Source: Gimesia aquarii
GTDB taxonomy: Bacteria > Planctomycetota > Planctomycetia > Planctomycetales > Planctomycetaceae
DNA length: 64,000 nucleotides
Reading direction: 5' to 3'
Assembly: GCF_007748195.1 (NCBI RefSeq)
Contig: NZ_CP037920.1
Coordinates: forward strand, 5,113,800 to 5,177,799
Below the pieces are notes generated by a model. That model saw only the letters and a list, made by a program, of their open reading frames with translations. It was not told the DNA's origin and ran no database searches. This document shows positions 18,167-47,820 of this stretch, one piece after another; positions within the stretch are counted from its first letter, which is position 1, and every line of letters begins with the position of its first letter. A program made the position numbers and the translations under genes.

Positions 18167-18169
18167 AAT

Positions 18170-18691
18170 TTAACCTTCTGCAGCCATTCGTTTCTGTACA
18201 CAATCAGCCAATTGTCGCCGAATGCGTAACAAGGCAACCTTGATTGAAGAAACAGACCGGTTCGCATTTTGACTCATTTCTGCAACCGATTTTGTACGAA
18301 AATATCGTTCTTCAATCAGTTCGCGATTCGATGAAGTTAACAGCCCAAGACAAGGCCGCAACGCTTCTCGAATGGCATCAATCTGTTCAGACTGACTGGC
18401 TGCTTCATCGCTCAGCATTTCCGCCAAGCTCGAATTCAGCAGCATCCGATCACGCTGCTTATCACGCAATTGTGCCAGTACCTGAAATCGGACAATCGCA
18501 AACGCCCAGGGCAAGAAAGGTCTTGTCTGATCATATTCTGCGATTTTCCGCCACAACACCAGGTTGGTCTCCTGTAAAACATCCTCAGCACGACTGTGGT
18601 CACCCAGCAAAGAATAGACATACCCGTAGAGCCGATTCTGGTTCTCTGTCAGTTGTTGCACAAATTGTTCATTATTGTCCGCTTGCCCCAT
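18170..18691 (-). CDS. ECF-type RNA polymerase sigma factor
   Basis: A 173-residue sigma-70 family factor with region 2 (about residues 10-75: LYGYVYSLLGDHSRAEDVLQ then PFLPWAFAIVRF) and region 4 (about 110-165: LIEERYFRTKSVAEMSQ, helix-turn-helix). This matches the subgroup common in Rhodopirellula and Verrucomicrobia. The start is well supported: AGGAGGAATT immediately precedes the ATG. It heads a tight four-gene operon (sigma, FecR-LamG, cytochrome/DUF1553, DUF1501) and probably directs that operon's own transcription in response to the FecR protein. The target promoter was not identified. Confidence 0.93.
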   Translation of the reverse strand: MGQADNNEQFVQQLTENQNRLYGYVYSLLGDHSRAEDVLQETNLVLWRKIAEYDQTRPFLPWAFAIVRFQVLAQLRDKQRDRMLLNSSLAEMLSDEAASQSEQIDAIREALRPCLGLLTSSNRELIEERYFRTKSVAEMSQNANRSVSSIKVALLRIRRQLADCVQKRMAAEG

Positions 18692-20340: not shown

Positions 20341-23300
20341 TTAACGATTGCGGAATTTCATCAAGACATAAGCAGCCGGCACGAAATACAGGGCTAAGAG
20401 CGTCGCTCCCCCCACACCACCTGCAATGGTGATTGCCAGGGGTGGCCAAAAATCGCCACCGCTGAGAATTAAAGGCAAGAACCCCGCAATTGTAGTGAAC
20501 GTAGTTGAAAGCACATGCCGGGTGCAGCCATTTACAACATTTACAATTGCTGCGACATCACCACGACTTGCATCAGGATCAGCCCGAATCCCGGCCATCA
20601 CCACAATCGAATCGTTGACGGCAAGCCCCATCAATCCCATGGTGCCGAGAATCGCCATGAATCCAAATGGATAGCCAAAATACCACAATGCAGCCGGACC
20701 CAGACCAACGGCTAAACCAGCCACAGATGCAATAATAAAAGCGATTCGAAACGAACGAAACGAGATCACCAGGATTGAGACCATCAGCGAAATTAAAATG
20801 ACAGCATCAGCGATCAAATTGGTGACCGCTTCATTTCTCGCTGCCGTTTCGCCTGCAAAGTCGATTGTATAGCCAAGCGGAAGCTTGAAACTCGATTGCT
20901 TTAAACGCGAACGAAAATCAGCTAACACAACCGCTGGTAATTTTCCTGCAGTAATATACGCTTTCAATTCGTTAGTATACTCACCATTGATGCGTGTGAT
21001 CGTAGAGATGTCTGCATCGAGTTGAAAGTCGGAAACTGCAGACAGTGGAGGACCTTCGGAATCCATGATTTCCCCACGTGCATTCATCCGAGGTCCTGTT
21101 GGCTGAATGATTAAACCCTGTAACTCATCAAGGTCCATTTCCTCAGCATCAGTAATCCGCACAATGACCGGAATTTCAAACTCACGATGCCGAATCGTTC
21201 CTGCTTTGAAGCCTTCTAATGCTGTATAAAGTTGACTGGCAATATCGGATTGAGTCAGCCCCGCCGCGTTCAGCTTGTCTTTATCAAAATCGAGTTCTAA
21301 ACTGGTCGTCACTTCTCCCAAATCTGACCGAGTATATATCACATCAGGTGTTTCGCTCAAAATTTTTCGTAGTTCAGAACCAAGTTGTTCCAAAACTCGC
21401 AGGTCTGGTCCTTTTAATAGAATCTCGATCGGGGCATCAACTGGTGGCCCCTGCTCCAGTTGACGGACCAAAATTCGCGCATCACGATTCGATTGGGTCA
21501 ACTTAGTTTGCAAGTCACGAACAAAACGAGGCGTATTCATGCCGGGTTCGAGATCAATAAATGCCTGACCGTAGTAGGTGGCATGCTGTCGGCGAGGTAC
21601 GATGTTATAGTAAAAACTGGGAGCACTTTCTCCCATAAACCAATTCGTATGACGTACTCCAGGTTCGTTTCTGATTAGTTCGTTCAAAGATGTGATAACG
21701 TTGCGTGTCTGTTCCTGTGAGGTCCCCACAGGTAATTCGACCTCAATTTGTATCTGATTGCGATCTGAGGCCGGAAAAAACTGTTCGGGCAATTGGCTCG
21801 TTTGTACAAACCCCAGCACTGGCAACCCAATCCCCACTAACAATCCCAGTAGTGGATGTTGGCAGACAATGGAAATAGAACGTTGATACATTTTTGAAAA
21901 CAAAGGAATTGATAATCCCGTCACCTGCTTTGCATGCTCAGCATTTTGGTCAGTCTTGCGAGAGATCATCCCAAGTAATGCGGGAACGATAGTCAGAGCG
22001 AGCAGTAAGGAGGCATTGATTGCGAGAATCACACTGACTGCGATCGTACCTACAAATTCGCCAGGTGGACCGGGTAACATCGCAATCGGTAAAAACGCGA
22101 GTGTCGTTGTTAGTGTTGAACACAATAATGGCATTGCCAAATGATGCACAGCTTGCGCGATCGCAGTCGAAATTGGCAAACCGGAGTGCATACGCTGGCG
22201 GCATTCATCGACCATCACAATCGCGTTATCGATCAATAACCCCAGTGCGATCACAATTCCTGTAATCGACATTTGATGAATTGGAATTTTCAATATCCGT
22301 AACCCAGCTAGCACGATCAAGGCCGTCAGCGGTAATGCCAATCCAATAACTGTCGCACTTCGCCAATCCATCATCACAATGATAACAATCATGACAGCAA
22401 TCATTCCCAGCAATAGATTACTGAGTAGTTCCTGCATACGAAGCGCGACAAATGGTCGCTGAGAAAAGATCACACTTAACTCAACATTTTTGGGTAATTG
22501 TTTTTTTAAACCCAGCAATAAGCGATCAAGACGATCCGACCAAAGATCAACCCGATAGTCATCACGTACATAGGCACATATTACGATTGCCTCTTGTCCA
22601 TCAATCAAGGTCGCATTGATTGGATTCGCTTCGGTTTGAATTGACACATTAGCCAGATCGGAAAGCTTGACCGATTCACCACCACTTCCCGGCTTAATCA
22701 GTGTCTCTTTCAAACCAGCTAATGAATCGAACTTGTCCCCATATGTGATAGGACGTTCGATTTGGTTTTGCTTGAGTGTACCGGCAGGAAATCGTGGTTG
22801 ACTTTGTTCAATTTGCTGACCTAGTGCCCCAACAGTCAACCCCGTCGATGCAAGCTTATCAAGGTCCACCTCAACAACAGCTTCTTCACCGGGATCACCG
22901 AAGATACGTGTCGTTTCCGTACCCGCCAGTCGGTCAATTCTGGCCTGTAAATCAATCGCGATCCTTCTAAGAGTGAAGGCATCTGCCGGACCGCCAGATT
23001 TCGCGCTTAACGCCACCATCGCAGCATAGGATTTCATTTCAGCGATGCGAATCTCAGGCGAAAGTGCTTGTGCAGGTAAATCAGATTTGGCCTGTTCGAT
23101 TTTATCTCGTACGCGCGACCAGACTTCAGGGATATTTGATACAGAATCCCGAAGTTCCACTTTTATCAATGAGACACCAGGTCGTGATCGAGATTGAATC
23201 GTTTTAATTTCAGCAATACTTCGGATTGCCTGCTCGATTTTCGTTGTTACTAATGAATCAACACGATCCGTATCCGCTCCCGGATAGCTGATGCTCACGA

Positions 23301-23433
23301 CCGCCACACGCCTGGAGAGCACGGGATCTTCGAGTCGAGGTGAGTTATAAAAAGCAGCTACACCAGAAGCAACCACTAAAACCAAGGCCATAATCAACAG
23401 CCGTGGATTTCGATAAAAGAATGTCGAAATCAT
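20341..23433 (-). CDS. RND family efflux transporter permease (AcrB/MMPL-type)
   Basis: A 1030-residue inner-membrane proton-driven pump with the RND layout: an N-terminal helix, a large periplasmic domain, a helix block around 335-490, a second periplasmic domain and a final helix block around 845-1025. [17 protein letters not shown] is the TM4 region with the Asp used in proton relay; the neighbouring position is Asn, as in many divergent HAE members. Its ATG overlaps the adaptor's stop codon in an ATGA arrangement, so the two are translationally coupled. It is the last gene of the PAL/PKS cluster and the natural candidate for exporting the cluster's lipophilic product. An independent drug-efflux role cannot be excluded. 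Confidence 0.93.
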
Positions 23434-24719
23434 AGGCTCGGCACTTGCTCCGGTTTTTTGTTATCCTTCAATCTCGTTTTTTTCTGTTCTGCATGACGTA
23501 CAATTTGACCGGGTACAATACGATGGAGTCCTTCGACGACAACAGACATGCCCTCGCGTAAATTTCCAAGTACTAAAGCTCGATCATTACCAACGTCAAT
23601 CACTTCTACATAGCGTCGCACGATTGTCGGTTTTTCCTCTATCGTCTCCACCAGATAAACAGACCATAACCCTGCAATTTCTTTCATCAATGCAGAAACA
23701 GGTAACCAAAATCCTGATTGCTGTTGCGCAGTGGGGAATAAAACATCAACCCGTTCTCCGGCAGTAAACGAATTGGCCGCCTTCGAGTCACGCGGCTGGA
23801 GTACCACTGTCCGTGTTTGTGTCAAGGCATCGACCGTAGGGTGAATCGCTGTAACTTGCCCGAAAATGGTTTGCTGATCTTGTTCAATTGGTAATTCCTG
23901 CCCCAGTGTGAGAGTTTCAGCAACTTCCGCTGGAAGTCGAACCCACACGCGGTATGCATCGATCTTTGCAATCTTTAATACAGTTCGACCTGGAGAAACA
24001 ACGCTTCCCGGATCAATCATTTTGTCGATGATCACACCTGTAAAGGGAGCTGTCACATTACAAGCTGCAATCGTGGCATCAACTTCCTGTAATTGTCCTC
24101 TTAAATCTTTAATCTGTGCTGTTAAACCGGTTATTTTTTGCTGACGTGATTTTTGATTCAAGGTCTGTATTTGTTCTTCACTACTTTTCAATCTTTCATT
24201 GAGATTGTCTCTATTTTCAGACGAGGGAAGCGAGTTCTTCACTTCAGTTTCAAGTCGGTCCAATTCGCTACGCAACTGATTGATTTTCGCCACCATCTGC
24301 TCGCTACTCTGGCCTGTCTTTGGTTGGTTAAGCGAGTTTAAGTCAGCCTGGGCAGCCGTTAATTGCGATTGCAAATTGAATTTTTTCTTGAGGAAAGGCT
24401 CATCATCTAATTGTGCCAATATCTCGCCCTGTTTTACAGCTGAACCGACATCAATGAACACCTCTGCTACCTTACCCGCTTGTATAAAGCTCAAATCACT
24501 ACTACGAACCGGCTTGATCAAACCAGAAAACCGTTCAATGAGATCGGGAATCTGATCTTGTTTTAACGTGATCGTTTTCACGCCAATTGTTTCAGTTTGC
24601 CTTACTTCGCTTTTTGAGGTTGTTCGATTGGCACTCGTGGGAGAATCACAGGCAGATAAACCAAATGGAAGAAGGATGCCGAAAATCAGGCAAAGCCGTT
24701 GGAACACGCATTGTATCAT
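23430..24719 (-). CDS. RND periplasmic adaptor (membrane fusion protein), lipoprotein
   Basis: A 429-residue adaptor starting at the ATG at 24719, because the following residues (QRLCLIFGILLPFGLSAC) form a lipoprotein signal with lipobox LSAC. The longer frame to 24812 has no signal logic. It has a biotinyl-lipoyl-like half (FIDVGSAVKQGEILAQLDDEP), a coiled-coil hairpin (about 110-215), the second lipoyl half (ITAPFTGVIIDKMIDPGSVV-like) and beta-barrel and membrane-proximal domains. It would link the RND permease to an outer-membrane channel; no TolC-like gene is present in the window. It lies about 200 bases after the second halogenase-like gene, in the same direction. Confidence 0.9.
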   Translation of the reverse strand: MIQCVFQRLCLIFGILLPFGLSACDSPTSANRTTSKSEVRQTETIGVKTITLKQDQIPDLIERFSGLIKPVRSSDLSFIQAGKVAEVFIDVGSAVKQGEILAQLDDEPFLKKKFNLQSQLTAAQADLNSLNQPKTGQSSEQMVAKINQLRSELDRLETEVKNSLPSSENRDNLNERLKSSEEQIQTLNQKSRQQKITGLTAQIKDLRGQLQEVDATIAACNVTAPFTGVIIDKMIDPGSVVSPGRTVLKIAKIDAYRVWVRLPAEVAETLTLGQELPIEQDQQTIFGQVTAIHPTVDALTQTRTVVLQPRDSKAANSFTAGERVDVLFPTAQQQSGFWLPVSALMKEIAGLWSVYLVETIEEKPTIVRRYVEVIDVGNDRALVLGNLREGMSVVVEGLHRIVPGQIVRHAEQKKTRLKDNKKPEQVPSL

Positions 24720-24921
24720 ATTGTAGAAACCAAAATTCCCTGTACTGGCTTGGGTAGAGCAAAACAAACCTGAGTCTGCACATCGACATGCCCTCAAATG
24801 CCAGAACCTCATTTCAACCTCTTGGTTACAGTATGTGGAAATTTCATGAAATGGCTCCAGGCCGCATCAGCAGCATTTCACAAATTCGATAACTGTATTA
24901 AAGGCAGAATCGATAGAGAAA

Positions 24922-26586
24922 TCAACTCAGTTTCAGACCTGCGGTAAGGGGTGCAGGTGGATCAACCTGTTCTGCTTTTTTCTGTGGAAAGATCACATCA
25001 AAAACTCCCCGGAACGCATCTTTCATGACCGAGGATGATTTTGCCATGGGGATCGGTGAGGCTGGAGTTAAACCTACCTGTTTTACAATTTCGGCATACA
25101 AAGTTTCCATTTGCGCTAAATTAGCAGAGAACTGTCTATCAAACTCATACCAGTTTAACTCAGTGATTAAAGCTTCGTTTTTATTTCGTATAATAGGTAA
25201 GTTAGAAATATTGACGAGGCCTGATATCTCCTGACTCGGAATTTTTTGATGCCATAACCGAAAGTAGTCTTGCATCTGATGATTCAAGTCTGACAAGCGG
25301 TTCAACTTGGAAACATTTCGCATATACATTGCATGGTTACAAAGTCGTTCCTGCATAAAAATGAAACCGGAGAGTGACCAGTAAATCAAATAATCCCACA
25401 TCACTTTGACAGGCATCACCTGCGGATTGCCGAATAACTGATACTGATCGCGATAGACGGCAGCCGTGCCGTGAAAAAACTTTTTGAAGATCCGGTCATA
25501 ACTGAATGCCCTGATACGGTGGCCTCGCCAGGTTAAATCCCGCCAGATTAAATCGGTCAAAAAAGTGTTTGCAAATGCGATGAAGTCACTACCCGGAGAA
25601 TAAAATGGATCCAGAAAAAAACCGGCCTCGCCTGTGATTCCCCAACGCTGACCTGAAAATACTTGCTGACATTCCCGGGAATAATTTTTATAGACAAGGA
25701 AGTCTTGAACCTCAGCATTCTGTTTTCGAAGCTGGCTTGCGAGTTGCGGCTCATTTTTTTCCAGCCAGGCCAGAGATTTCTCTAAAGTGTTGATCTCTGT
25801 AAGTGGATGAAATTGTTGTTCAGCAACAATCCCAATACTCGTCGAACCCGATGCCAATGGAATCAACCAGACCCAATAACCCTGGCCCATTAAATGGTTC
25901 GTGCTGTACCAGCGGGAAGTCTTCCCCTCGTGGCCGGATTGCCAATCTGGATCGTCTGACCAATCATCGACTTTTAACCGATCGTCGATCCGAAACCAGG
26001 CCGCATTACATTTTTGGTCTGTCGGTTTTTGTAATCCCAAATGTTGTTTTAACAAAGCGCGGCGACCACTGGCATCCACCACCCAACGCGATGCGACCGT
26101 TTGTGTCATTTCATCACGCGCGTATGTCACCTCATGTCTGCGATTCCACTTATTGATTTGTAGCTTCTTGATGTCGGCACGATCAAGAAAATCAATCCCC
26201 TGCTCTCGGCAGCGCTCTCCCAGAAAGTTTTCAAACCGTCCGCGATCTAATTGATAGCTTGCCGCTGGCGCATATCGAGTCCCCCCAATTTCCAAACGTT
26301 TCTCAATTCGTGAATTATCGCCATATGGAAAAAAGAAACGCAGACCCAGTTTGGGCAATTGTTCTTCGACGATATGCTGTTTCAATCCGAGTACATCGGC
26401 AAAATAATAAGCACCGACCTCGACCGTCGATTCGCCCACTTTATGAGTCGCTTCAGGTACGGGATGTGCCATTTTATCGAGCACAGTAATTTGTGCCTTG
26501 GGCAATTTTTGACGACACTGGAGCGCTAAAGCTAACCCAGCCAAACCGCCACCTAAAATTGTGACATCACTTTGTGTTGCCGCCAT
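24922..26586 (-). CDS. Flavin-dependent halogenase-like monooxygenase (copy 2)
   Basis: A 554-residue FAD protein of the tryptophan/phenol halogenase superfamily. The dinucleotide motif GGGLAGLAL lies at residues 12-20. KVGEST follows at 49-54. Lys79 in [10 protein letters not shown] sits where halogenases carry the catalytic lysine that carries the hypohalous species. WVWLIP at 238-243 matches the family WxWxIP motif that blocks simple monooxygenation. [14 protein letters not shown] is the second FAD-binding block. It is a diverged tandem paralogue of the gene just upstream (78 bases apart). Both probably act on the cluster's aromatic or polyene product; hydroxylation or another oxidation remains possible. 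No flavin reductase partner is encoded nearby. Confidence 0.8.
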
Positions 26587-26664
26587 TATTCTTTTCCCCT
26601 AACGGAATTCATTTTTTTCAGTTATTAACAATTATCATTATGTAAATGGTAAACCATCTGGCGA

Positions 26665-28311
26665 CTATAAATTCATTGCTTCAAATACTCGATCGAGTCG
26701 GTTTTGAGAGCAATGTCCCTCCTCTGCTGAGGATGCCAGTTCGGGATATTGCAAGCTAATTCGCGATGTAATTTCTAACATTAAGTCTTTGACAATCTCG
26801 ACATTCCTGGTAAATCGTGCTTTTAACGCTTTGTCTTCTAATTCCTCCGACAATTCCCCATTCAACTGAATCAAGATTTCGATGGATCGTTGATCAACAA
26901 ATGTCGCATCGATAATGGCAACATCTTCCAGATCATGCCACTCTCGAAAAAACTGCTGCATCTGCACGTTCAATGCCCGCATCGCTTGAATCTCTCGTGA
27001 CAAAGACTGAATAAACGTCGGCTCGGTCAGTTTGTCTTGAAAATAGAGCAAAGCTGGGAAGCTCCAATACAAAGCATAATCCCAAACATATTTCAAAGAC
27101 ATAATTCGTGGATTTCCGAAAAGGGGATACTGTTCCTGATATGCTAATAAATTGTTCTGGAACAATGTCATAAAAATGCTTTGGAACGCGGGCGCCAAAT
27201 GGGTAATCGGTCGAGTTGATAAATCAGTCGTGATCAACTCAGTAATCATTGTGTTACCGATCGCGATATAATCGATACCCGGTGAATAAAACGGATCAAG
27301 AAATACACCCGCTTCACCCGTTAATGCCCAGCGATCCTTAGAAAAGACCTGCTGGCACCCACGAGCAAGTTGTTTCATGGCCATGAAATCTTTCAATTTA
27401 TCCTGATGTGGCTCCAGCCGCGCTGCACATTCAGGTTCGTGAATACGTAACCACGCGAGTGCCTTATCGAATCGATTTAACTCATTGAGTTGATGCAGTC
27501 GAGGATCAAATACAATTCCCAGACTGGTGGCACCAGATGACAACGGAATAATCCAAACCCAATAACCAGAACCTAATAAATGATTTGTGCTCAACCAGCG
27601 ACGAGGAACCCGCCCTGTGCGCTGCCCCCACTCTGGTTCATCACACCATTCATCAACTCGAATCTCTGCATCCAACCGAAACCAGACTGCATTAATATTA
27701 TGATCAATTTCTTCGGAAAGATTTAATTTTCGTTTCAAAAAACTTTGTCGACCGCTGGCATCAATCAACCAGCGACACTGGAGCGAGTGGGCTACATGAT
27801 TCTGTTCATATTCAATTCGATGTGATGCCGAATCAGTATCCGTTGCCATTTCAATCTGACGCACAAAAGAATCTGTGATTAAATCGGCTCCCATTTTCTG
27901 AACCGTCTCGGCAAGATAATTCTCCAAACGTCCCCGATCTACCTGATATCCGGGCGCTGGAAAAAATTCGCTCGTTCCTACTTCCGTACCAGCTGAAATT
28001 GGTTGGTCATTCTGATTGAAGAAAAACCGCAAACCTAATTTTGGCAGATGCTGATCGGCTAAATGCTTTTTCAGGTTGAGTCGTTCCCCTAAATAATGGG
28101 CTCCAATTTCAACCGTGGATTCCCCCACCTTATGTGAGGCTTCGGGAACAGGAAACGATTTCTTTTCAATAATTGTGATCGAAGTTTCAGGACGCTGCAT
28201 CAGCGTCTGTCTGGCGAGTGTCAAACCAGCTAGTCCCCCACCGATGATCACGACATCACATTGGTCCTTTTCCATGTTGAGATTCTTTTCTCCACTTTTC
28301 GTCTGGTTCAT
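26665..28311 (-). CDS. Flavin-dependent halogenase-like monooxygenase (copy 1)
   Basis: A 548-residue paralogue of the previous protein. The start at 28311 is chosen because ATGA overlaps the PKS stop codon, a typical translational coupling; an ATG at 28275 is the alternative. GGGLAGLTL (about residues 24-32), HKVGESTVE, Lys91 in [10 protein letters not shown] and WVWIIP at about 251-256 reproduce the halogenase signature set. [19 protein letters not shown] forms the flavin loop. Conservation of both the Lys and WxWxIP in both copies argues for halogenation rather than simple hydroxylation, but substrate and halide are unknown. Being coupled to the PKS gene, it almost certainly tailors the PKS product. 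Confidence 0.82.
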   Translation of the reverse strand: MNQTKSGEKNLNMEKDQCDVVIIGGGLAGLTLARQTLMQRPETSITIIEKKSFPVPEASHKVGESTVEIGAHYLGERLNLKKHLADQHLPKLGLRFFFNQNDQPISAGTEVGTSEFFPAPGYQVDRGRLENYLAETVQKMGADLITDSFVRQIEMATDTDSASHRIEYEQNHVAHSLQCRWLIDASGRQSFLKRKLNLSEEIDHNINAVWFRLDAEIRVDEWCDEPEWGQRTGRVPRRWLSTNHLLGSGYWVWIIPLSSGATSLGIVFDPRLHQLNELNRFDKALAWLRIHEPECAARLEPHQDKLKDFMAMKQLARGCQQVFSKDRWALTGEAGVFLDPFYSPGIDYIAIGNTMITELITTDLSTRPITHLAPAFQSIFMTLFQNNLLAYQEQYPLFGNPRIMSLKYVWDYALYWSFPALLYFQDKLTEPTFIQSLSREIQAMRALNVQMQQFFREWHDLEDVAIIDATFVDQRSIEILIQLNGELSEELEDKALKARFTRNVEIVKDLMLEITSRISLQYPELASSAEEGHCSQNRLDRVFEAMNL

Positions 28312-31300: not shown

Positions 31301-34300
31301 CGCCGCCCATCCGTTTCCAATCAACGTCTAACACAAGTGCCTGTTGCAAACTGGCTCGAACCGCCTTTTCCAGAACATGATGGGCATCATCAACGGTTAA
31401 CGGAGTAATCCCCTGAAGAGCGAGGCGTTTGACAATCAACTCATTATCGGCCATTCCTTCCGTCCAGGGGCCCCAGTTGAGACTGATAGCAGGCAGTCCC
31501 TGTTGTCGACGGCGATCGGCCAAACCATCCAGGAACCCATTTGCGGCTGCGTAATTTGTTTGCCCCGGTGATCCTAACAACGACGCAGCCGAAGAATACA
31601 ACACAAAGAAATCGAGGTCGAAATCACGTGTTAATTCATCGAGCAAACTCGCGCCCAGAACCTTTGGCTCCAGGACTTTCTCAAATCGTTCCCAGGTCTG
31701 ATCGGCAATCAAACCATCGTCGAGTACACCGGCTGCATGAATCACACCTTTGAGCACAGGCCAGTCTGTACCAAATTTGTTACAAAGTTGTTCCATATCC
31801 TTACGCAAACTGGAATCGGCTTGATGAATGACGGTACGGCAACCTAACTTCTCAATCTCATTGACCAGTTCCAATGTCGATTCGCTCGGTGGGCGACGCG
31901 ACACCAACACCACATGCGAGGCTCCTTTCTTTGCCAACCAAAGCCCGGCCTGTCGTCCGAGCATTCCGAGTCCACCGGTAATGAGATAACTCCCCTGCGA
32001 GTCAATTGGAAATTCAATTTCATCGATCGAAGTCAAACGCGTTTGCTGCAATCGCGGTACATAATACCGGTTGGATCGAATCACGATTTGATTTTCGACC
32101 GTGTCATTCAAGATGTATTCAGCCACTGATTCAGCTTGCTCGTTACCTTCAGAAAGATCATTGCGATTAACGTCAACCAGGCGACAATGGAATTCAGGAT
32201 GCTCTGCTCCTAACGCACGACCAAAGCCCCAGAACTGAGATTGAATCGGATCAACGTGCTGAGCTTCTCCTGCTTTTGATTCCCCGGACAATGATGCATC
32301 AGAAAGACTAATACTATTACTGGTCACAATTTGAAAACCGCACTCAAATCCCTGGACTTTCTCGACCCGACAAGCAGAAAACAGCGCGAGCAAACTCGGA
32401 AAATGCAAACGCGAGGTTGATAACGTCGATTCAGATTCGACATCACTCGAATCACATGCTAACCAGACCACCCCCTGTGGAATGGCTTTGTGTTCATCCT
32501 CACGAAGTATCTGCAGTAACTCTTGCCAGTGTTGCTGACACTGACCATTCAGTTGGTAAAAGTCATCCGCATTTACCTGGAGTGTTTCCGTAGTTGCCAA
32601 CTGGATATGAACCGCCCGATGCCCCTTTTCGCAGATCAAGTTTCGAATCGACTCTGCGAGAAGTTGATGACCTGAAGCAGCCCCAGTTGCAGTATTTCGT
32701 TCCTGACTGATAATCAACCAGTTTTTCGGTTCAAGTTCCGTCATAGGAAGACGATAGTTCTGCCACTGCAAATCGTATAACAAGCGCGTATCGGAGGTGC
32801 CACTCATTCGTCGCAGCAACGCACGATCGAGTCGTTTGACGGTCAAGTTTTTAATCTCAGCTAAGACAGTCCCCTGTCGATCCAGCAATGAAATATCAGC
32901 AGATCGAACATCCCCTTCCGGTTCAGTCCACGTCGCAAAACTGAACACGTCCTCTGTCATCGCGCGGTGACAAACCACGCGCTCAATCCCGACGGGTAAA
33001 AATAAATCGTCAGCATTTTCACGTAGTAGGCCGGCGGCAAGAGAATGAAAAGCACCGTCGAGTAGCGTTGGCGGAATCGTGTAACCCCGCAAGTCACCCA
33101 TGGTCTGCAATTCTGCTACAACAAATTCTGTGGAAAATTTGAGCGACTTGACAACTCGAAACGCAGGACCATAGTTCAATTCCAGACTGCCAAGTAAGCC
33201 ATAAAATTGATCGACATCGGCTGTTTCGGACAGATTTGTGAGAATGTCCTGTAAGTTGATTGCCGGAGGCTGGCTGGCTTCTGACTCCACAACCATGGAT
33301 CGAAAACATCGAGTCCAGTTCTCTGTTTGTTCCGGGCTCGCATAAACTTGCAAGCTTTTGCCTGATTCATCGTTTGTACGTAAGACAGACTGTATCCGGG
33401 TTCGTCCCTGAAGACGCAAAGGTTGCTCAAATACGATCTCTTTCAATTCAATCGCTGGTTGTACTGCTAACGCAAGATCAATAAAGCCTGCGCCAGGAAA
33501 TACAATCGATCCCATGACCTCGTGGTCGGTTAACCAGGGCGGACTGTCCGGTTCGATAATTTTTTCAAATCGTATTTCGTCAGTGAGCCCTGCCAGCGAG
33601 CACTTTTCCCCAAGCAAAGGATGTGTTGAATGTGAAATTGCCTGAGCGGCCTTCGGCTTGGCTGGTCCCCAATAACGTTGTCGTTGAAACGGATAAGTCG
33701 GCAGCAGTAGATTTTGATCAGATTGTTTGGGATTCAGTTGATTAAAATCAGGCGTTATCCCCTGCACATACCCCTGGCCCACGACATCAAGCAAAGATAC
33801 CTCATCATCAACACTTTTGTCTAAACAACACGCAAGCGAAGACTGACTACCATGCCAGACCGAGCGTGCCATACCGGTCAACACGGGTTGAGGTCCCAGT
33901 TCAAGTAGGAAACTGGCTTGCATTTCCTGCAAGCTCGAAATGCTATCCGCATAACGAACCGGTTTTCGGATATGATTGGCCCAATAGGTTCCGTCTAATA
34001 TTTGTTCGTTTCCGATCAATTGACCTGTCACATTACAAATCAAAGGAATACGGGCGGGTTGAAAGTCCAATGAATCAGCGAAACGTGTGAATGCTTCCAA
34101 CGCCGGTTCCATCAAATGGGAATGGAATGCTTGGGATGTGTTTAATTTTTTACAGCGAACGCCTTCTTCCGAAAACTGTTGAGTTATCTCGTCAACAATC
34201 GCTGTTTCACCGCTGATAACAGTATGCAGACCATTTTGAGCCGCAACAGAAACACCCGGATATTCGGCTACAATGGACTCGACTTTTTCATAAGCCGCAA

Positions 34301-36413
34301 AAACAGCAGCCATAGAACCACCGGTGGGGAGGTCACCAATCAATCGCCCCCGCTCACAAATCAGACGAAAACCTTGTTCCCAATCCATCACACCAGCCAC
34401 ACAGGCTGCCGCATATTGCCCCACACTATGTCCCAGCACAACATTAGGTCGCAATCCCCAACTGAGTAGTAATTGCGCTAAGCCTCTTTGGATCGCAAAT
34501 AGTCCCGGCTGCGTCCATTCGGTTCGATTGAGGAGTGTTTCCTGCCGCCAAAGTACGTCGAGTAAAGATTGCCCCGATAAATCCTGCATCATTGCTTCAC
34601 AGTCATCAAGGGCCGCTCGAAACTGGGGCTGTGTCTCATAGAGTTCGGCAGCCATCCCCACATACTGAGAGCCTTGTCCCGTAAATTGCCAGGCGACTGT
34701 TGATGAAGGCTGTGCTTGTCCGATGTGAACACCTTGCTGATTATCACTTCGGTAAATTCGATCGAGTAACTGTTCAGCTTTCTGATGTGAGTGAACAACC
34801 ATCGCGAGGCGCTGTTCCATGTGTCGTCGTCCGACACCCGCCGTGTGTGCTATACTTGCCAGTGGAACTTCATGATGCTGAGTGAGCCAATTACGATATT
34901 GGTTTGTCTGCTCCAGTAATGCCTGCTCTGTTTTGGCTGATATGACCAGAAGTTGAGGCTTCTCCTTTCGCTGTTCATGCTTTGTCTCTTTGAAATGCTG
35001 CGCACGCTCACTAATAGCATGATTCCGATGACCATTACGATTCGTTGTTCTTGGAGAATAACTCGTAAGCACAACATGGGCATTCGTGCCACTCATTCCG
35101 AAAGCGCTGACGCCGGCAATCAGTTGTGATGCATTTGGCCAGGGTGTCGTTTCAGTGACGATATTCACCGGAATTTGATCCCAGGGAATATGCGGGTTGG
35201 GTTGTTCAAAATTCAGTTGCGGTGGAATCGCCTGATTTTTCATCGCAAGCAACACTTTAATCAACCCCGCCATGCCCGCTGCCGCTTCCAGGTGCCCGAT
35301 GTTCGTTTTGACCGAACCAACCAATAGAGGATTTTCTTCGCTACGCCCTTTCGCCAGTGCCGCCACAGCCGCCTGCATTTCAATCGGGTCACCTAGTTCG
35401 GTCCCTGTCCCATGGGCTTCTAAATAAGCGACATCATGCGGATTGATTTTCGCCCTTCTCAGTGCTTCCTGAATCACGCGTTCTTGTGCCCGCGGATTAG
35501 GAACAGTCAACCCGCTACTAAAACCGTTGTGACCAATGGCAGAACCACGGATGACTGCTAAAATGGGATCTCCGTCACGCTCAGCATCTCGAAGTCGTTT
35601 CAATGTGACAACGCCACAACCTTCGCCGCGCACATACCCGTTGGCACCCGCATCAAAAGCCCGCGATTCACCGGTCGGCGACAAGGCTTTCAATTTACAC
35701 GTAAGAATGTTAGTCGTGGGCGAAGCGATCACATTGACACCCCCTGCCAGTGCTTGATCGCATTCCTTTCGAGTTAAACTGAGACAAGCCAGATGGAGAG
35801 CCACTAATGAAGAAGAACACGCCGTATCCACAGCGAGACTCGGACCTTCGAGTCCCAGATAATAAGCCAGACGACCACTTAAAAAACTTCCCGCGGCACC
35901 GGTGGCAATATAAGGATTCAAATTTAAAAATGAGTCACTGGCTTCATTCTGATAATCGTTATGCATCCAACCAACGAAGACACCGGTTCGTGGCCCGATT
36001 TTCTCAGTTGTCCAACCTGCTCTTTCCAGAGATTCCCAACCGGTCTCAAGCAGCAGCCGCTGCTGAGGATCAACCCAAGTCGCTTCACGAGGTGAAATGC
36101 CAAAAAAATCAGCATCAAATGAATCGATCTCATCCAGAAAGGCCCCCGTGCGGGCATACATTTTCCCTGGAGTCTCTGGATTTTCGGAATGGAAGGCTGC
36201 TAAATCCCAGCGAGAATCGGGAACTTCATTCAATTCGTTGCGTTGATCGATCAAGCTCTGCCAAAACTGTTCGGGACTACTCGAAGTCTGGGGAAAACGA
36301 CAGGCGATCGAAACAATGGCAATCTCCTCAGTGGGAGCATGTTGCGCGGCAGCAAGCTCCTGCTTCAATTCCCGAATTTTCAGTAAAGCCTGTTTATTTG
36401 GAGATAATTTCAT
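28308..36413 (-). CDS. Type I polyketide synthase KS-AT-DH-KR-ACP with degenerate C-terminal KS-AT
   Basis: A 2701-residue PKS from the ATG at 36413 (frame open to 36434; residue numbers below count from 36434). The N-terminal helix MKLSPNKQALLKIRELKQEL looks like a docking coil. KS1 (about 37-460) has DTACSSS with Cys206, His341 and His381. AT1 (about 580-890) has GHSVG with Ser670 and SQAFHSH, predicting malonyl-CoA. DH (about 935-1200) has HEVMGSIVFP (His971) and LLDGAFH (Asp1126). KR (about 1480-1650) has GGLGMLG, an LDD motif (B-type) and NYAAAN. ACP carries GMDSL (Ser1783). No ER or thioesterase was found. KS2 (about 1860-2290) reads DTASSSS, Ser2030 replacing the nucleophile Cys. AT2 (about 2300-2690) reads GFGIG where GHSxG belongs and lacks the specificity segment. 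Confidence 0.95.
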   Translation of the reverse strand: MKLSPNKQALLKIRELKQELAAAQHAPTEEIAIVSIACRFPQTSSSPEQFWQSLIDQRNELNEVPDSRWDLAAFHSENPETPGKMYARTGAFLDEIDSFDADFFGISPREATWVDPQQRLLLETGWESLERAGWTTEKIGPRTGVFVGWMHNDYQNEASDSFLNLNPYIATGAAGSFLSGRLAYYLGLEGPSLAVDTACSSSLVALHLACLSLTRKECDQALAGGVNVIASPTTNILTCKLKALSPTGESRAFDAGANGYVRGEGCGVVTLKRLRDAERDGDPILAVIRGSAIGHNGFSSGLTVPNPRAQERVIQEALRRAKINPHDVAYLEAHGTGTELGDPIEMQAAVAALAKGRSEENPLLVGSVKTNIGHLEAAAGMAGLIKVLLAMKNQAIPPQLNFEQPNPHIPWDQIPVNIVTETTPWPNASQLIAGVSAFGMSGTNAHVVLTSYSPRTTNRNGHRNHAISERAQHFKETKHEQRKEKPQLLVISAKTEQALLEQTNQYRNWLTQHHEVPLASIAHTAGVGRRHMEQRLAMVVHSHQKAEQLLDRIYRSDNQQGVHIGQAQPSSTVAWQFTGQGSQYVGMAAELYETQPQFRAALDDCEAMMQDLSGQSLLDVLWRQETLLNRTEWTQPGLFAIQRGLAQLLLSWGLRPNVVLGHSVGQYAAACVAGVMDWEQGFRLICERGRLIGDLPTGGSMAAVFAAYEKVESIVAEYPGVSVAAQNGLHTVISGETAIVDEITQQFSEEGVRCKKLNTSQAFHSHLMEPALEAFTRFADSLDFQPARIPLICNVTGQLIGNEQILDGTYWANHIRKPVRYADSISSLQEMQASFLLELGPQPVLTGMARSVWHGSQSSLACCLDKSVDDEVSLLDVVGQGYVQGITPDFNQLNPKQSDQNLLLPTYPFQRQRYWGPAKPKAAQAISHSTHPLLGEKCSLAGLTDEIRFEKIIEPDSPPWLTDHEVMGSIVFPGAGFIDLALAVQPAIELKEIVFEQPLRLQGRTRIQSVLRTNDESGKSLQVYASPEQTENWTRCFRSMVVESEASQPPAINLQDILTNLSETADVDQFYGLLGSLELNYGPAFRVVKSLKFSTEFVVAELQTMGDLRGYTIPPTLLDGAFHSLAAGLLRENADDLFLPVGIERVVCHRAMTEDVFSFATWTEPEGDVRSADISLLDRQGTVLAEIKNLTVKRLDRALLRRMSGTSDTRLLYDLQWQNYRLPMTELEPKNWLIISQERNTATGAASGHQLLAESIRNLICEKGHRAVHIQLATTETLQVNADDFYQLNGQCQQHWQELLQILREDEHKAIPQGVVWLACDSSDVESESTLSTSRLHFPSLLALFSACRVEKVQGFECGFQIVTSNSISLSDASLSGESKAGEAQHVDPIQSQFWGFGRALGAEHPEFHCRLVDVNRNDLSEGNEQAESVAEYILNDTVENQIVIRSNRYYVPRLQQTRLTSIDEIEFPIDSQGSYLITGGLGMLGRQAGLWLAKKGASHVVLVSRRPPSESTLELVNEIEKLGCRTVIHQADSSLRKDMEQLCNKFGTDWPVLKGVIHAAGVLDDGLIADQTWERFEKVLEPKVLGASLLDELTRDFDLDFFVLYSSAASLLGSPGQTNYAAANGFLDGLADRRRQQGLPAISLNWGPWTEGMADNELIVKRLALQGITPLTVDDAHHVLEKAVRASLQQALVLDVDWKRMGGGSESPPLFEKLSAASQKSKAGDSEMVGKLKTLQGSARQKLLIETIQNQFQQILSTPEPPEIDRPLIEMGMDSLMAVEFSMQLQSMLGDDYVVSQTMLFDHPTITAIADHVLGMIDEAAEANSSDVETGLPAASDESVSISVSADQIARDDIAIIGMSCRFPGAKDVNEFWENLLAGVDSVREVPSDRWDVEAFYSPNREPGKMYTREGGFLDDIDCFDADFFGISHEEACWLDPQHRLLLENCWTALEDAGVKPYPLQDSNVGVFMGIMSSDYASLSTLENHDILADFQGAGFSHSAGVGRISYSFGFEGPSLAIDTASSSSLVAVCQAMRSLQEGHCNLALAGGVNAILTPFNSLLMAKTGMLSPDGRCKSFSAGADGFGRGEGCGVVVLKRLSDAERDGDQILAVVRGGAISHNGFSSSITTPNSRSQSRLIQDALQDAKISPAQVQYLEAHGTGTEYGDPMELTAAAAVFGRGRNQKNRLLVGSVKANISHLEAAGGISGLIKAVLAMQHGVIPQQLHCKEPSPHIPWKRLPLDLVQEQTVWPESEERIAAVTALGLAGTNAHVILSSQLEHRAPHQLTVVDQPADPPVSLLTMSANSLSSLQQTVTRYHDCLVANEAVNLTDFCYTAATGRRIFDNRIGIMGATQADMVSQLQELAKELTSGEGDHAQLSLQREGFLAGYAKETPKLGWVFHDASKQELLQSRILYQDQYPFRELVDRMNGVYQTLTNSGSDSATDLISWFTDESVAGNTIDLPLDVIQFVCQLGLAEVWQTYGVESDVVAGFGIGQYSAAVFTGMMSSEEGLKLVVERNRLLKNPGIQSSLSNIDETKFDEVTVTALQQFEEFADTLNYFPANRLILNSLTGQAVPIQQLLAGSFWREHAVAKDNIAETLASFVEMKCELILQIGIGQAVEEVNEKWSAAQSLTVLPSTLSKDESPGSIVPTLANLFVRGCSLDLSAPYARLQPRKMSLPTSPFERKHHWISDLVQAGSTVE

Positions 36414-36633
36414 ACTGGCTCGTATTGAACACATTTCCGATAATTAGTGAGACGACTTCACTCGTTGAGGAATGTTAGTCTCATTCCACCTAATCCCAGA
36501 TCGACAAGTACCGGGAAGACGAGGAAGACCTAGTTCACTAATCTTAGTTGTTTGCGGCAATTAGATAAACAGGGAAATAAAGCGATCGGGAGCAGAGGTT
36601 CTATCCATTCGCAATTGATCTTAGGATCGAAGT

Positions 36634-38739
36634 TCAATTTTTCAATTCGCGAATCAGCTGTTCTAAAGCCTCTTGCTCTGATAACCCTTCAATTTCAGCT
36701 TCCAAATCGGATGTTTCACTGGGATTATCAGTAAACAAAATGTCACCACCACCTTCTTTTTGAGGTATTTTGACAGTCTGTTCACGACTCACACTGCTTC
36801 CAGAAGTTTCGCGATCTGAATCGTCGTTGGAATGAATTTCTTCAAGAATTGACGACAAAAAAGCGGCCAATTCTGCAATGCTGGGATAATCGAATACTAA
36901 TGTCGCTGGTAAATCGACAGCGTGACCGAGCCTTTGTTTCAACCGTTCCTGCAAATCGACAATCAACAAAGAATCGAGGCCTGCTTCAATAAAACGTTCG
37001 TCAGCATTCGGTAGTTCGTCCAACTGCAGCATCTGTTGCACATCCAGTTGGAGCATGGAAGTAATTTCACGCAATCGATTCGCCGGATGTGATTTTAGCA
37101 TTTCCATCACCCAGGCTGAGTGAACTTTCTGCTTCGCAGCTTCCCGCTCTGACTCTTCCGTTGATACTGAAACATCTATGTCAGTTTTGGGCTGTATCTC
37201 TTGCTGCGTTTCAGTAATCATCGATTCTGCTTGTTCGCGCAGAACCCGCTTGAGTACTTTACCCGAAGGATTCCGCGGCAATTCGTCGATCAGCAATAAA
37301 TGCTTGGGCATCTTATAGCTCGCAAGATTTTGCTGACAGAACTCACGAAGCTGCTCAAGGACCTCAGTATGCGTTACTTCGGAACCAGTTTGAAGATCCT
37401 TGGCTAGCACAATGAACGCAACAACCTTCTCACCCAAAATGGCATCTGCTAATCCAACCACTGCTACATCTGAAATTGCGGCATGTTCATGCAGGGTTCT
37501 TTCAACTTCTGCCGGAAAGACTTTGAGCCCTGCGATTGAAATCATATCCTTTACACGGTCGACAATATAGAAGTAACCCTGCTCATCAATCCGCCCAATA
37601 TCACCAGAATGAAACCAACCATCGCGGATTGCAATCGCTGTATCGTCGGGACGATTCCAATATCCCAGCATCACATTGGGACCACGAACCACAATCTCTC
37701 CTAATTCTCCGGGTACACAAGTCTCACCTGTCTCAGTATGAACCACTTTCATTTCAACCAGATCAACGGGAGACCCAATTGATCCAGGGATAAATTTCAA
37801 ACGATGATTATAACTGGCAAAAGGTGCAGTTTCGGTTAAACCATAGCCTTCGTAGATCGGCATCTTGAATTTCTGTTGCCAGCGTTCAGCGACAATTTGT
37901 GGTAAGGTTGTTGCGGCCGAGAAACAATAGTTAATGCTTTTTAAATCTTCGAGGCTGCATGTTTCCTCGAGTAATTGAAACATGGTTGGCACACCAAACA
38001 GCTTATTCACCCCTTCATCCATGATTAAGGATTTGGATTCATTCAAATCAAAACGCTGCTGTAATACAATGGTTGCCGCTGCATGGAAACCAGAATTCAG
38101 TAACGCGTTCTGACCATAACAATGGAATAAAGGCACACTACAGAGAATGCGATCATCCTGATTTAAACCACACAAATTGTTAAAGGCGTGCACGGTTGCC
38201 CGTACATTTTGATGTGACAACGTCGCCCCTTTGGGAAAACCAGTGGTCCCAGATGTGTAGAGAATGACTGCCGGATCGTCTGGTTTGGTCGGATAAATGT
38301 CAATGGGGCCTGATTCGCTGACGCTGAGAAATTCATCGGAAATTTTATCACCAGCCTCAGAAACCGAAATCAAATGCTGCATACAAGCTGGCATCTGTGA
38401 TTGTAAATCGACCGATTTGGATTCGACGACGACCAGTGCCACTGCAGTACAATCTTCAACAATAAACCGAATTTCCTGAGGAGTCAGCCGCGTACTCACA
38501 GAAACAGCAATCGCACCGACACGCAAAACCGCATAATACCAGACTACAAAAGCGGGTGTATTCGGTAGCGCAATTGCTACTCGATCCCCAGGGTGAACTG
38601 CAAACTCTTGCAAATAGCAGGCTGCCTGACTGCTTAGGTGTTCAAGCTCAGCATAAGTAAAACGGATTCCATTAAATACGAGTGCTTCACGCTCAGGAAA
38701 AATTTGTGCCGATACCGTTAAGTGTTCACAGATATTCAT
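36634..38739 (-). CDS. AMP-dependent acyl/aryl ligase fused to an acyl carrier protein (PKS loading protein)
   Basis: This 701-residue protein would adenylate a carboxylic acid and pass it to its own carrier domain. The adenylation domain (about 1-515) shows ILYTSGTTGFPKGATLSH, YGLTETAP, GWFHSGDIG and the C-terminal catalytic Lys region PRNPSGKVLKR. After a linker comes an ACP with EAGLDSLLIVD; Ser590 is the phosphopantetheine site. The last ~25 residues (SDLEAEIEGLSEQEALEQLI) look like a C-terminal docking helix, complementing the N-terminal coil of the PKS encoded next, 200 bases on. Placed directly after the ammonia-lyase gene, the likely substrate is cinnamate as PKS starter. Substrate is inference; domain calls are firm. 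Confidence 0.92.
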   Translation of the reverse strand: MNICEHLTVSAQIFPEREALVFNGIRFTYAELEHLSSQAACYLQEFAVHPGDRVAIALPNTPAFVVWYYAVLRVGAIAVSVSTRLTPQEIRFIVEDCTAVALVVVESKSVDLQSQMPACMQHLISVSEAGDKISDEFLSVSESGPIDIYPTKPDDPAVILYTSGTTGFPKGATLSHQNVRATVHAFNNLCGLNQDDRILCSVPLFHCYGQNALLNSGFHAAATIVLQQRFDLNESKSLIMDEGVNKLFGVPTMFQLLEETCSLEDLKSINYCFSAATTLPQIVAERWQQKFKMPIYEGYGLTETAPFASYNHRLKFIPGSIGSPVDLVEMKVVHTETGETCVPGELGEIVVRGPNVMLGYWNRPDDTAIAIRDGWFHSGDIGRIDEQGYFYIVDRVKDMISIAGLKVFPAEVERTLHEHAAISDVAVVGLADAILGEKVVAFIVLAKDLQTGSEVTHTEVLEQLREFCQQNLASYKMPKHLLLIDELPRNPSGKVLKRVLREQAESMITETQQEIQPKTDIDVSVSTEESEREAAKQKVHSAWVMEMLKSHPANRLREITSMLQLDVQQMLQLDELPNADERFIEAGLDSLLIVDLQERLKQRLGHAVDLPATLVFDYPSIAELAAFLSSILEEIHSNDDSDRETSGSSVSREQTVKIPQKEGGGDILFTDNPSETSDLEAEIEGLSEQEALEQLIRELKN

Positions 38740-38780
38740 GACGTCTCTGCAATCATTTTTGTGGTAAAAGTGCTTGGAAT

Positions 38781-40427
38781 TTATACTTCAAAAGCCGCTT
38801 TGAACGAGTCAACAAGCGGCTTGATCGCGGAAATGACTCCTTTGCCGGGTTTCAGACCTTGCTTAAGCATTTGTAAGTCTGCTTCCAACCAACGGTCATC
38901 ATCATGTCCCAGGAAAGGCTGCTTTTGTCCCGTTTTTTCTCCACAGGCATTATAGATGGCATCGTAAATTGGCACCAGAGGTTTTTGCAATAAGGCCCGA
39001 CCATCAAAATGTCCCAATTCTTGCTTGGCACGTAAGTCGACCGCTTGAATCGCGAACAGACTGGCAACTGCCATATAATCCTGAAACAGATCAACACAAC
39101 GCCAGGCCATATTCGCTGAAGTCCAGCTTAAACCGTTAATGTTTTGATTAAACTGCTCCGCATGAGTTGGAAAATGTTCTGTAATCGGATTGCCGAAATA
39201 GGTCAGCAGCGGCATAATCGAATTGCCTGTAATCTGAAGTCCTTTCAAACCCATGTTGTATATTCGAGAATCATCGCCGCGCAAAGAAGGTGGCAATCCG
39301 TGATTAAATTCTGGTGATACCAACTGTGCAATTTGCACATCAAGATGTTTGGCGAGTAATCCCAGAAATCGTCGCAAATCATCCATCGCGATTGCAACAT
39401 ACTGCCCCAAAAAATTCCCATTCTGATAAAAACGCTGCTCGGCACTATCAATGAGAGGATTGTCCGTCACCGAGTTCATTTCAGTGGCGATGACTTCGGA
39501 AACATGAGCCATTCCATCTACAATCGGTCCAAAATATTGGGGCAAACAACGCAATGAATATCGATCTTGTATAATTGAATTCGTAGAATTGCCGTTTTTG
39601 GACTCAGCTCCCAGGAATTCACGCATTACTTTCGCTGTCCAGAGTTGACCGGCATGCGGTTTATTCTGATGAACAAACGCGGCAAAAGGCTCGTGTTGAA
39701 CGTTCAAAGCTCGTAACATCATTGCCTGCATTGCTAAAGACATCGCCAGCAACGTCTGCGACTCATAGACACAATTGGCGGCTATCGCAGATGAAAAAGA
39801 GGTTCCATTGACAATCGCGAGCCCCTCTTTGGCTTGCAACTCAATCGGTTCCAGTTCCAGTTTTTTTAACGCCGCCAGGCCATCGATTTGCTGGCCATCG
39901 AGCAAAATCTGACAGCGCGATGAATGCCCTGTAATCGCGCGACCTATTGTCGCAAGCGGGACAAGGTCACCACTCGCTCCAATAGACCCTAATTCTCGAA
40001 CCACAGGAATGGCATCTGCGCAAATGAACCGAATTAACCGATCAATAATTTCACGCCGAACGCCTGATTTTCCCTGTAACAATACATTGGCGCGCAACAA
40101 CATCGCAGCACGAGTATGTCGACTGGAAACAGGTTCTCCCGTTGCAGTTGCCAGAAAGGCGAGTAAGTTGCGCTGTGATGCATTGACCAACTCATTTGGA
40201 ATCGCAACATCAGCCATTCCTCCAAAACAAGTTGTCACACCGTAGATGGGCTTGTTTTCAGCAACAGCAGTATCAACCACAGCTTTACTGGCGGCCAACT
40301 GTTTGAGTACCAGAGAGTCATTTGTGACCCGAGGCATTACTTGCCCTAACCCTACCTGGTAAACCGTATCAATTGATAGCATCCCGCCATCGAGCACTAC
40401 TTCAGAAGAACTTGCAGGGTTGGTCAT
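38781..40427 (-). CDS. Phenylalanine ammonia-lyase (MIO family, cyanobacterial-PAL-like)
   Basis: A 548-residue MIO enzyme that removes ammonia from an aromatic amino acid. The start is the ATG at 40427; the frame reaches a TTG at 40454. Counting from that TTG, the ASG triad forming the MIO cofactor is at 160-162 (GSIGASGDLVPL), Tyr71 lies in IYGVTTCFGG, and QDRYSLRC, NSVTDNPLID and FPTHAEQFNQN are the other active-site blocks. The substrate-selectivity pair is Phe100-Leu101 (LLAFLATA). Phe-Leu is typical of phenylalanine ammonia-lyases, whereas tyrosine lyases carry His and histidine lyases Ser-His. The sequence closely resembles Anabaena-type PALs. Product would be trans-cinnamate. First gene of the cluster, 41 bases before the ligase-ACP gene. 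Confidence 0.9.
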   Translation of the reverse strand: MTNPASSSEVVLDGGMLSIDTVYQVGLGQVMPRVTNDSLVLKQLAASKAVVDTAVAENKPIYGVTTCFGGMADVAIPNELVNASQRNLLAFLATATGEPVSSRHTRAAMLLRANVLLQGKSGVRREIIDRLIRFICADAIPVVRELGSIGASGDLVPLATIGRAITGHSSRCQILLDGQQIDGLAALKKLELEPIELQAKEGLAIVNGTSFSSAIAANCVYESQTLLAMSLAMQAMMLRALNVQHEPFAAFVHQNKPHAGQLWTAKVMREFLGAESKNGNSTNSIIQDRYSLRCLPQYFGPIVDGMAHVSEVIATEMNSVTDNPLIDSAEQRFYQNGNFLGQYVAIAMDDLRRFLGLLAKHLDVQIAQLVSPEFNHGLPPSLRGDDSRIYNMGLKGLQITGNSIMPLLTYFGNPITEHFPTHAEQFNQNINGLSWTSANMAWRCVDLFQDYMAVASLFAIQAVDLRAKQELGHFDGRALLQKPLVPIYDAIYNACGEKTGQKQPFLGHDDDRWLEADLQMLKQGLKPGKGVISAIKPLVDSFKAAFEV

Positions 40428-40764
40428 TTCGAGTGAATAAGGCCTTGTTAACAAATAATGCTGCTTAAATACGGAATCGCTTCGACATCTCGAGAATAAC
40501 GAATCAATGGAACGTAAGACATTTGAATGAATTCAAACTATCGTTTCACTGCCAATTGAGTCAATAGGTCTCTTCAATCGAATGACTTTAACCGAAAAAT
40601 TGAAACGCGGGTACAGGACATAAAACCAGCAGATCAAATCTTCAAATGTGAAAACTATGATAGAACATGGTCAGTGGTCAAGCATAGGGCAATCGAATGA
40701 ATATTTGCATTTGCTTTGTGAGACCGGGAGGTTTCAAAGATAAAACCCTTCCTGATGTGCCACG
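40428..40764. other. Intergenic region upstream of the PAL-PKS cluster
   Basis: This 337-base gap lies before the ammonia-lyase gene and after the stop of the large heme protein gene, both on the minus strand. It should contain the promoter of the whole biosynthetic cluster. No specific operator, terminator or small gene could be recognised with confidence; an imperfect GGGAGGTTT / AAACCCTTCC pair lies around 40726-40753. Confidence 0.4.
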
Positions 40765-47788: not shown

Positions 47789-47820
47789 TAAAACGATCTA
47801 ATAAGAGGACGTCATTAGTC

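Follow-up and report, generated by a model that had tools for sequence, protein, structure and literature searches.

Gene content and spread of the block

The 64-kb window of Gimesia aquarii DNA analysed here (by window we mean that whole stretch, which sits within a single 7.40 Mb contig) carries at positions 20341-40427 a block of seven minus-strand genes. They encode an aromatic amino acid lyase (PAL), a ligase with a fused acyl carrier protein (LIG-ACP), a type I polyketide synthase (PKS), two members of the flavin-dependent halogenase family (FDH1 and FDH2), an RND adaptor and an RND permease (Table 1). The same-strand gene set had been proposed in a sequence-only reading of this DNA and was borne out by the list of open reading frames (ORFs) together with Pfam, as were the ATGA couplings: one four-base overlap links the stop of the PKS gene to the start of FDH1, read from its ATG at 28311, and another links the adaptor (MFP) and permease genes. 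The contig encodes one lyase of family PF00221.

Two further genomes also carry the block, with 69-100% identity depending on the gene or domain compared, which makes three genomes with the block (G000, G048 and G216); a LIG orthologue was found in the same proportion of the genus, 3 of 17 genomes. It is collinear in G048 (90-100% identity) and in G216 (69-95%), and since G216 carries it among other neighbours, the borders of the block could be set. The ratio of nonsynonymous to synonymous substitution rates (dN/dS) between the window and G216 lies at 0.05-0.21 for each of the seven genes; this constraint and the recurrence in two other genomes show that the block is not a chance assembly. Recent foreign acquisition was rejected on base composition, as the G+C content of the block resembles that of its surroundings.

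Matches to PAL at E 1e-100 or better were found in five of 392 genomes of the phylum, three of them members of the genus and the other two distant, with 43-46% identity. One of the distant lyases (G046) lies on a contig of only 3 kb; the other (G180) neighbours a ligase 25% identical to LIG, with no PKS or FDH match within the 30 kb read around it. Furthermore, genome contigs were scanned with the PAL alignment, which matched 592 stretches, of which 587 were confirmed and the best 80 kept as loci. Most of these 80 are only 30-35% identical to PAL, and a second copy of the block was not found among them, several of which lie on truncated contigs; this leaves room for one elsewhere. A literature search of open-licence PMC papers found no published description of the block.

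Table 1. Genes and domains of the block, with positions in the window. PAL is taken from its ATG (in the ORF list it begins further out, at the TTG at 40454), and FDH1 in its shorter form, as in G216 (the TTG at 28350 of the ORF list lies upstream).
Feature	Position	Strand	Evidence
PAL, MIO-type aromatic amino acid lyase with Phe-Leu pair	38781..40427	-	PF00221, E 1.8e-133
LIG, AMP-binding and C-terminal domains, fused ACP, C-terminal docking-like helix	36634..38739	-	PF00501, PF13193, PF00550
ACP of LIG, about aa 560-632, GLDSL	36844..37062	-	PF00550 at aa 567-628
PKS, 2708 aa, KS1-AT1-DH-KR-ACP-KS2-AT2	28308..36434	-	Pfam, translation
KS1, motif DTACSSSL	35055..36326	-	motif reading
AT1, GHSVGQ and AFHS	33825..34709	-	translation, alignment
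DH, HEVMGSIVFP and LLDGAFH	32805..33629	-	PF21089, PF14765, translation
KR, GGLGMLG, LDD, Tyr	31335..31994	-	PF08659, translation
ACP of PKS, GMDSL	30960..31199	-	PF00550
KS2, Ser2030 for catalytic Cys, both His motifs kept	29565..30860	-	alignment; dN/dS 0.039
AT2, truncated; GHSxG changed to GFGIG; AFH stretch and small subdomain gone	28365..29279	-	alignments; dN/dS 0.187
FDH1, flavin-dependent halogenase family	26665..28311	-	PF04820; aligned Lys, WVWIIP, DPFYSPG
FDH2, flavin-dependent halogenase family	24922..26586	-	PF04820; aligned Lys, WVWLIP, DPFYSPG
RND periplasmic adaptor (MFP)	23430..24812	-	TIGR01730, 146.5 bits against a cut-off of 94.9
RND permease, AcrB type	20341..23433	-	PF00873, E 5.4e-141

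PAL, the ligase and the starter unit

In the alignment PAL has the Ala-Ser-Gly triad of the MIO cofactor (GSIGASGDLVPL), and its selectivity pair is Phe-Leu, as read earlier, and not a His pair (LLAFLAT aligned to WFLKT of the solved chain 2nyn). The same pair occurs in the G046 lyase, in 2nyn and in 9eq5, the best solved relative of PAL (688 bits), which is named a histidine ammonia-lyase. Of the 14 lyases of the PAL scan that were read at this position, two have Phe-Leu (L062 and L072) and nine have His in second place. Relatives of LIG (44-49% identical) adjoin a lyase or sit one gene off at seven loci (L062, L063, L067, L068, L072, L074 and L076) that belong to three other phyla, four being cyanobacterial, two from Herpetosiphon and one deltaproteobacterial. 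These are seven of the best 80 of 587 loci, and six of the 13 in which lyase identity is at least 41%. Four of these seven ligases and the G180 ligase were aligned with LIG, and all five are without the fused ACP. Because of the Phe-Leu pair in PAL and the lyase-adjacent LIG relatives in other phyla, the earlier proposal of aryl-acid priming is supported, and the starter of the block would likely be cinnamate.

Two of these loci may be described on their own account. The Nostoc locus (L072:8770-16105) runs from a DAHP synthase gene through those of the lyase, the LIG-like ligase and a TPP enzyme to a KAS III-like gene, and at L063:9938-14636 a P450 gene lies between the lyase and the LIG-like ligase; the arrangement looks like a cinnamoyl-CoA pathway.

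Architecture of the PKS

The 2708-residue PKS reads KS1-AT1-DH-KR-ACP-KS2-AT2, with two ketosynthase (KS) and two acyltransferase (AT) stretches found by Pfam. The KS-AT-DH-KR-ACP set of the sequence-only reading is thus present; that reading took it for a single module and missed the KS2-AT2 pair that follows the ACP. It was right that KR and DH are accompanied by neither an enoylreductase (ER) nor a thioesterase (TE), as Pfam found no such domain in the PKS, nor a second ACP. The motif set of AT1 is malonyl-type, and KR has the GGLGMLG and LDD motifs and the catalytic Tyr. Docking-like helices, also predicted earlier, are present at the C-terminus of LIG and the N-terminus of the PKS and are kept in G216; these two ends look like a matched docking pair of a known type. 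By eye no comparable helix was seen at the C-terminus of the PKS, which suits a terminal enzyme. A bimodular cis-AT PKS was rejected, as KS2 has a Ser, AT2 has GFG and a second ACP was not found.

The motif of KS2 reads DTASSSSL, Ser2030 standing where the catalytic Cys would be, and the histidines of HGTGT and NISH are retained; in AT2 the catalytic Ser is gone (GFGIGQ), and alignments place the loss of the AFHS-bearing stretch and the small subdomain in the same domain. The nucleophiles are missing from both KS2 and AT2 in all three orthologues. Between the window and G216, dN/dS is 0.041 for KS1, 0.039 for KS2, 0.080 for AT1 and 0.187 for AT2, values that are rough at a dS of about 0.9, and by this rough measure KS2 is constrained as strongly as KS1. 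The 100-residue bin of highest identity in the whole PKS, 2001-2100 (99%), includes Ser2030. A fold prediction of the KS2-AT2 monomer from the three-row alignment reached a mean pLDDT of only 32 and was set aside.

A search for KS2-AT2 in the 392 genomes, with at most two candidates scored per genome, matched 41 of them and listed 57 places, of which the best 30 were kept as loci and read. Within this sample the exchange of the KS Cys for Ser is unique to the block: it occurs only in the three orthologues, and the other 27 loci have Cys. The AT serine motif is altered in three of the 27 (L145 of G061, L157 and L162), and two have no aligned AT motif. At L145 (G061:C127:116639-119095), in a planctomycete of another family, an ORF for a 5741-aa PKS contains an AT-dead module: its KS has the Cys, and the AT behind that KS has neither the GHS serine nor the AFH stretch nor the small subdomain. 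A dead AT as a trait of the block alone was accordingly rejected.

KS1 and KS2 group together with support of 98/97 in a tree of 33 KS rows, a set in which CexF and the iterative PKSs of MIBiG are not represented; KS1 and KS2 are 54% identical, and the G061 KS is 57% identical to KS1 and 55% to KS2. Duplication of a KS would be the simplest account of KS2. Descent of AT2 from AT1 is unsupported, since the two share 24% identity and AT2 scores equally well with some other ATs.

What this inactive pair would do can be read in several ways. KS2-AT2 might be the relic of a second module, so that the PKS extends cinnamate only once, and the resulting 5-phenylpenta-2,4-dienoyl-ACP is halogenated and released. 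The domain set of one module suffices for this product, KS2-AT2 is placed where a second module would begin, the ordinary-looking large PKS of G061 also has a dead, truncated AT behind a KS, and modular cinnamate-primed PKSs are known, as in the available text on phenylnannolone (PMC5577590). A mere remnant should decay, however, yet KS2 is constrained like KS1, and an RND pump and two halogenases would seem lavish for a small dienoic acid; we hold a short product to be unlikely.

Alternatively, the pair could act on chain length. Like a chain length factor, KS2 is a KS homologue without the condensing Cys, and the block might thus encode a type I PKS with a chain-length factor of its own, in which the duplicated, Ser-bearing KS2 and the gutted AT pair with or prop KS1 and set the length of the polyene. 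We consider this unlikely, and slightly more so because the grouping of the two KS domains is supported and the origin of AT2 from AT1 is not.

Quite unlikely, finally, is a role of KS2 as release or transfer domain, in which Ser2030 would take the finished chain and pass it to an acceptor or to water. Both His motifs, a hydroxyl nucleophile and the strong constraint would fit, Pfam found no other release domain in the PKS, and the missing TE would be explained; against it, no acceptor or partner gene was identified, and ketosynthases with Ser for Cys are mostly known as crippled condensing enzymes.

The halogenase-family flavoproteins FDH1 and FDH2

FDH1 and FDH2 are 40-42% identical to each other, and both contain GxGxxG, the aligned catalytic Lys, WxWxIP and a halide-site motif, as flavin-dependent halogenases do. 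An alternative is that they are hydroxylases or other oxidases and that the product is not halogenated: their NCBIfam matches, which include models of the LodB, geranylgeranyl reductase and QhpG types, all fall under cut-off, and the best solved match of FDH1, 3nix, is named a flavoprotein/dehydrogenase. The aligned Lys and WxWxIP are nevertheless present in all 24 FDH-family rows, DPFYSPG is shared by the two proteins and the majority of solved matches are named halogenases, which makes the alternative improbable.

FDH1 and FDH2 do not form a sister pair in the tree; both fall inside a group of 16 rows (support 96/99), where the nearest to FDH2 is the halogenase of G264 (96/95), a gene that adjoins a KS/Ketoacyl-synt_2 pair. 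The aryl-polyene marker DUF3261 lies at most 10 kb from the FDH match in five of 17 genomes from outside the genus (G085, G045, G264, G259 and G125), on another contig in G018 and nowhere in the other eleven. All five belong to the nine such genomes inside the 16-row group, against none of the eight outside it. According to Pfam, selected neighbours of the halogenases in G085 and G264 include a KS, Ketoacyl-synt_2, a lipid-A-type acyltransferase and DUF3261, and in G085 additionally MMPL and an O-methyltransferase. In G097 and G174 a lipid-A-type acyltransferase adjoins the FDH gene, and in G097 a KS gene lies about 4 kb off. The pair of halogenase-like flavoproteins of the sequence-only reading therefore gains, besides PF04820 and the motifs, a tree kinship: a relation of FDH1 and FDH2 to halogenases of planctomycete aryl-polyene-type clusters is supported, and the two appear to derive from the type II aryl-polyene kind of cluster.

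Proposed pathway

From the genes and domains, the state of the motifs, and the conservation, phylogeny and synteny described above, we infer a substrate, iteration, halogenation, a role for KS2-AT2, release and export. We consider the chances about even that an iterative type I PKS of the block makes a halogenated acid derivative of the phenyl-polyene or phenyl-oligoene type, which is then exported. PAL would deaminate phenylalanine to cinnamate, which LIG would adenylate and load onto its own fused ACP, and the docking helices would hand the cinnamoyl unit from LIG to KS1. KS1-AT1-DH-KR-ACP would then iterate with malonyl-CoA, KR acting before DH, and because there is no ER each round would stop at the enoyl stage and give conjugated enes. 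KS2-AT2, unable to condense or to load an extender normally, may be kept to play a structural part, to set chain length or to transfer the chain. FDH1 and FDH2 would each add halogen to the chain or the ring, and the adaptor and pump would export the product.

Several observations weigh against this pathway. Nothing in the sequence shows iteration, and one round fits the same domains; neither a TE nor a KAS III nor an acyltransferase was found in the block to explain release. With the NCBI phenylalanine ammonia-lyase model (680 positions), PAL scores 329 bits, under the cut-off of 519.15, and the NCBIfam model that it matches best is one for histidine ammonia-lyase, the HutH models being under cut-off too. 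The best NCBIfam match of LIG is a long-chain-fatty-acid-CoA ligase model (438.5 bits, with a cut-off of 476), and the solved proteins closest to it carry the names fatty-acyl-CoA synthase and feruloyl-CoA synthetase. The lyases near the LIG relatives at L063, L067 and L068 have a Tyr-His pair, so cinnamate is not the only acid to which this family of ligases is tied, and at these loci it may take coumarate. Halogenases of this kind act poorly on an unactivated phenyl ring, DUF3261 had no match in the three block genomes, and the FDH1-like gene of G288 lies among RecQ and rRNA-methyltransferase genes on a 27 kb contig without a KS match.

Other genes of the window

Flanking genes were rejected as members of the block, as the neighbours differ in G216 and the gene at 40765-44871 occurs in four genomes of the genus without a LIG match. 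This gene, matched in six of the 17 genus genomes, encodes a 1368-aa protein with DUF7133, DUF6807, chitobiase C-terminal-like and cytochrome c domains. At 13705-18691, genes for a sigma-70-type factor, a FecR/laminin-G protein and a PSCyt1/PSCyt2/PSD1 protein are consecutive. At 46502-49458, a DACNV gene with a sub-cut-off match to DAC (diadenylate cyclase-like) is followed by a fusion of cNMP-binding and pyridine-nucleotide oxidoreductase domains, a possible nucleotide-signalling redox pair.

Comparison with known systems and implications

The sequence-only reading held that known aryl polyenes are made by type II, fatty acid synthase-like enzymes from phenolic starters. Such type II systems are the subject of the available parts of the Lysobacter and Azoarcus papers, which report an unusual chain length factor and, in many of the clusters, halogenase genes (PMC3691225, PMC3949708). 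The premise is weakened by the celluxanthenes (cex) of Acetivibrio thermocellus, which, on the strength of gene deletion and labelling, are attributed to a pathway that starts from phenylacetate and uses an iterative type I PKS (PMC12144888).

As far as that text goes, the cex pathway resembles the one proposed here in its iterative type I PKS with KS, AT, KR, DH and ACP, its AMP-dependent ligase and a phenyl-polyene that this PKS is proposed to make from a non-phenolic aryl acid, and differs in the phenylacetate starter, two KAS III enzymes and a Trp-derived tetronate release; its gene list is without PAL or halogenase, and a dead KS-AT is not mentioned (PMC12144888). The block has the corresponding KS, AT, DH, KR and ACP, no ER and a ligase in the cluster, for which an aryl preference is presumed. 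Xanthomonadin, arcuflavin and further type II aryl polyenes would share with the block an aryl starter activated by an AMP ligase, a polyene and, in many clusters, a halogenase; in the available text they use dissociated enzymes and hydroxybenzoate starters, whereas the block has one type I polypeptide and PAL (PMC3691225, PMC3949708). Assignment to the type II aryl polyene clusters (APE, xanthomonadin, flexirubin) was rejected, given a single 2708-aa PKS, no free-standing KS/CLF, KR, DH or ACP and no DUF3261. Phenylnannolone offers a likeness in the AMP ligase-carrier didomain that loads cinnamate and in its phenyl-polyene product; it differs in being modular and pyrone-forming with a thioesterase, in a cinnamate for which a source other than an ammonia lyase is proposed and, in the parts of the paper available, in the lack of any mention of a halogenase (PMC5577590). 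The KS/CLF pairs of type II PKSs include a second KS homologue that lacks the condensing Cys and is under selection, as is KS2 (see also PMC3691225); in contrast, KS2 is part of the type I PKS itself, in cis towards its C-terminal end and followed by a dead AT, and has Ser rather than Gln. The block thus shares parts with each of these systems and matches none. Type I aryl polyenes are already known (PMC12144888, in its accessible text), and new here are the PAL priming, the pair of halogenases and the dead C-terminal KS-AT.

The block combines PAL and a type I PKS with halogenases of the aryl-polyene type in one compact unit that could be tried in a laboratory strain of E. coli, and few natural products are known from Planctomycetota. 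If KS2 does set chain length, the KS/CLF pairs of type II aryl polyene systems would have a counterpart that acts in cis within a type I enzyme. Dead but conserved at the end of an otherwise minimal PKS, the KS-AT pair provides a clean test case for chain counting and release in type I enzymes, one in which Ser2030 or the pair as a whole can be altered within a single protein.

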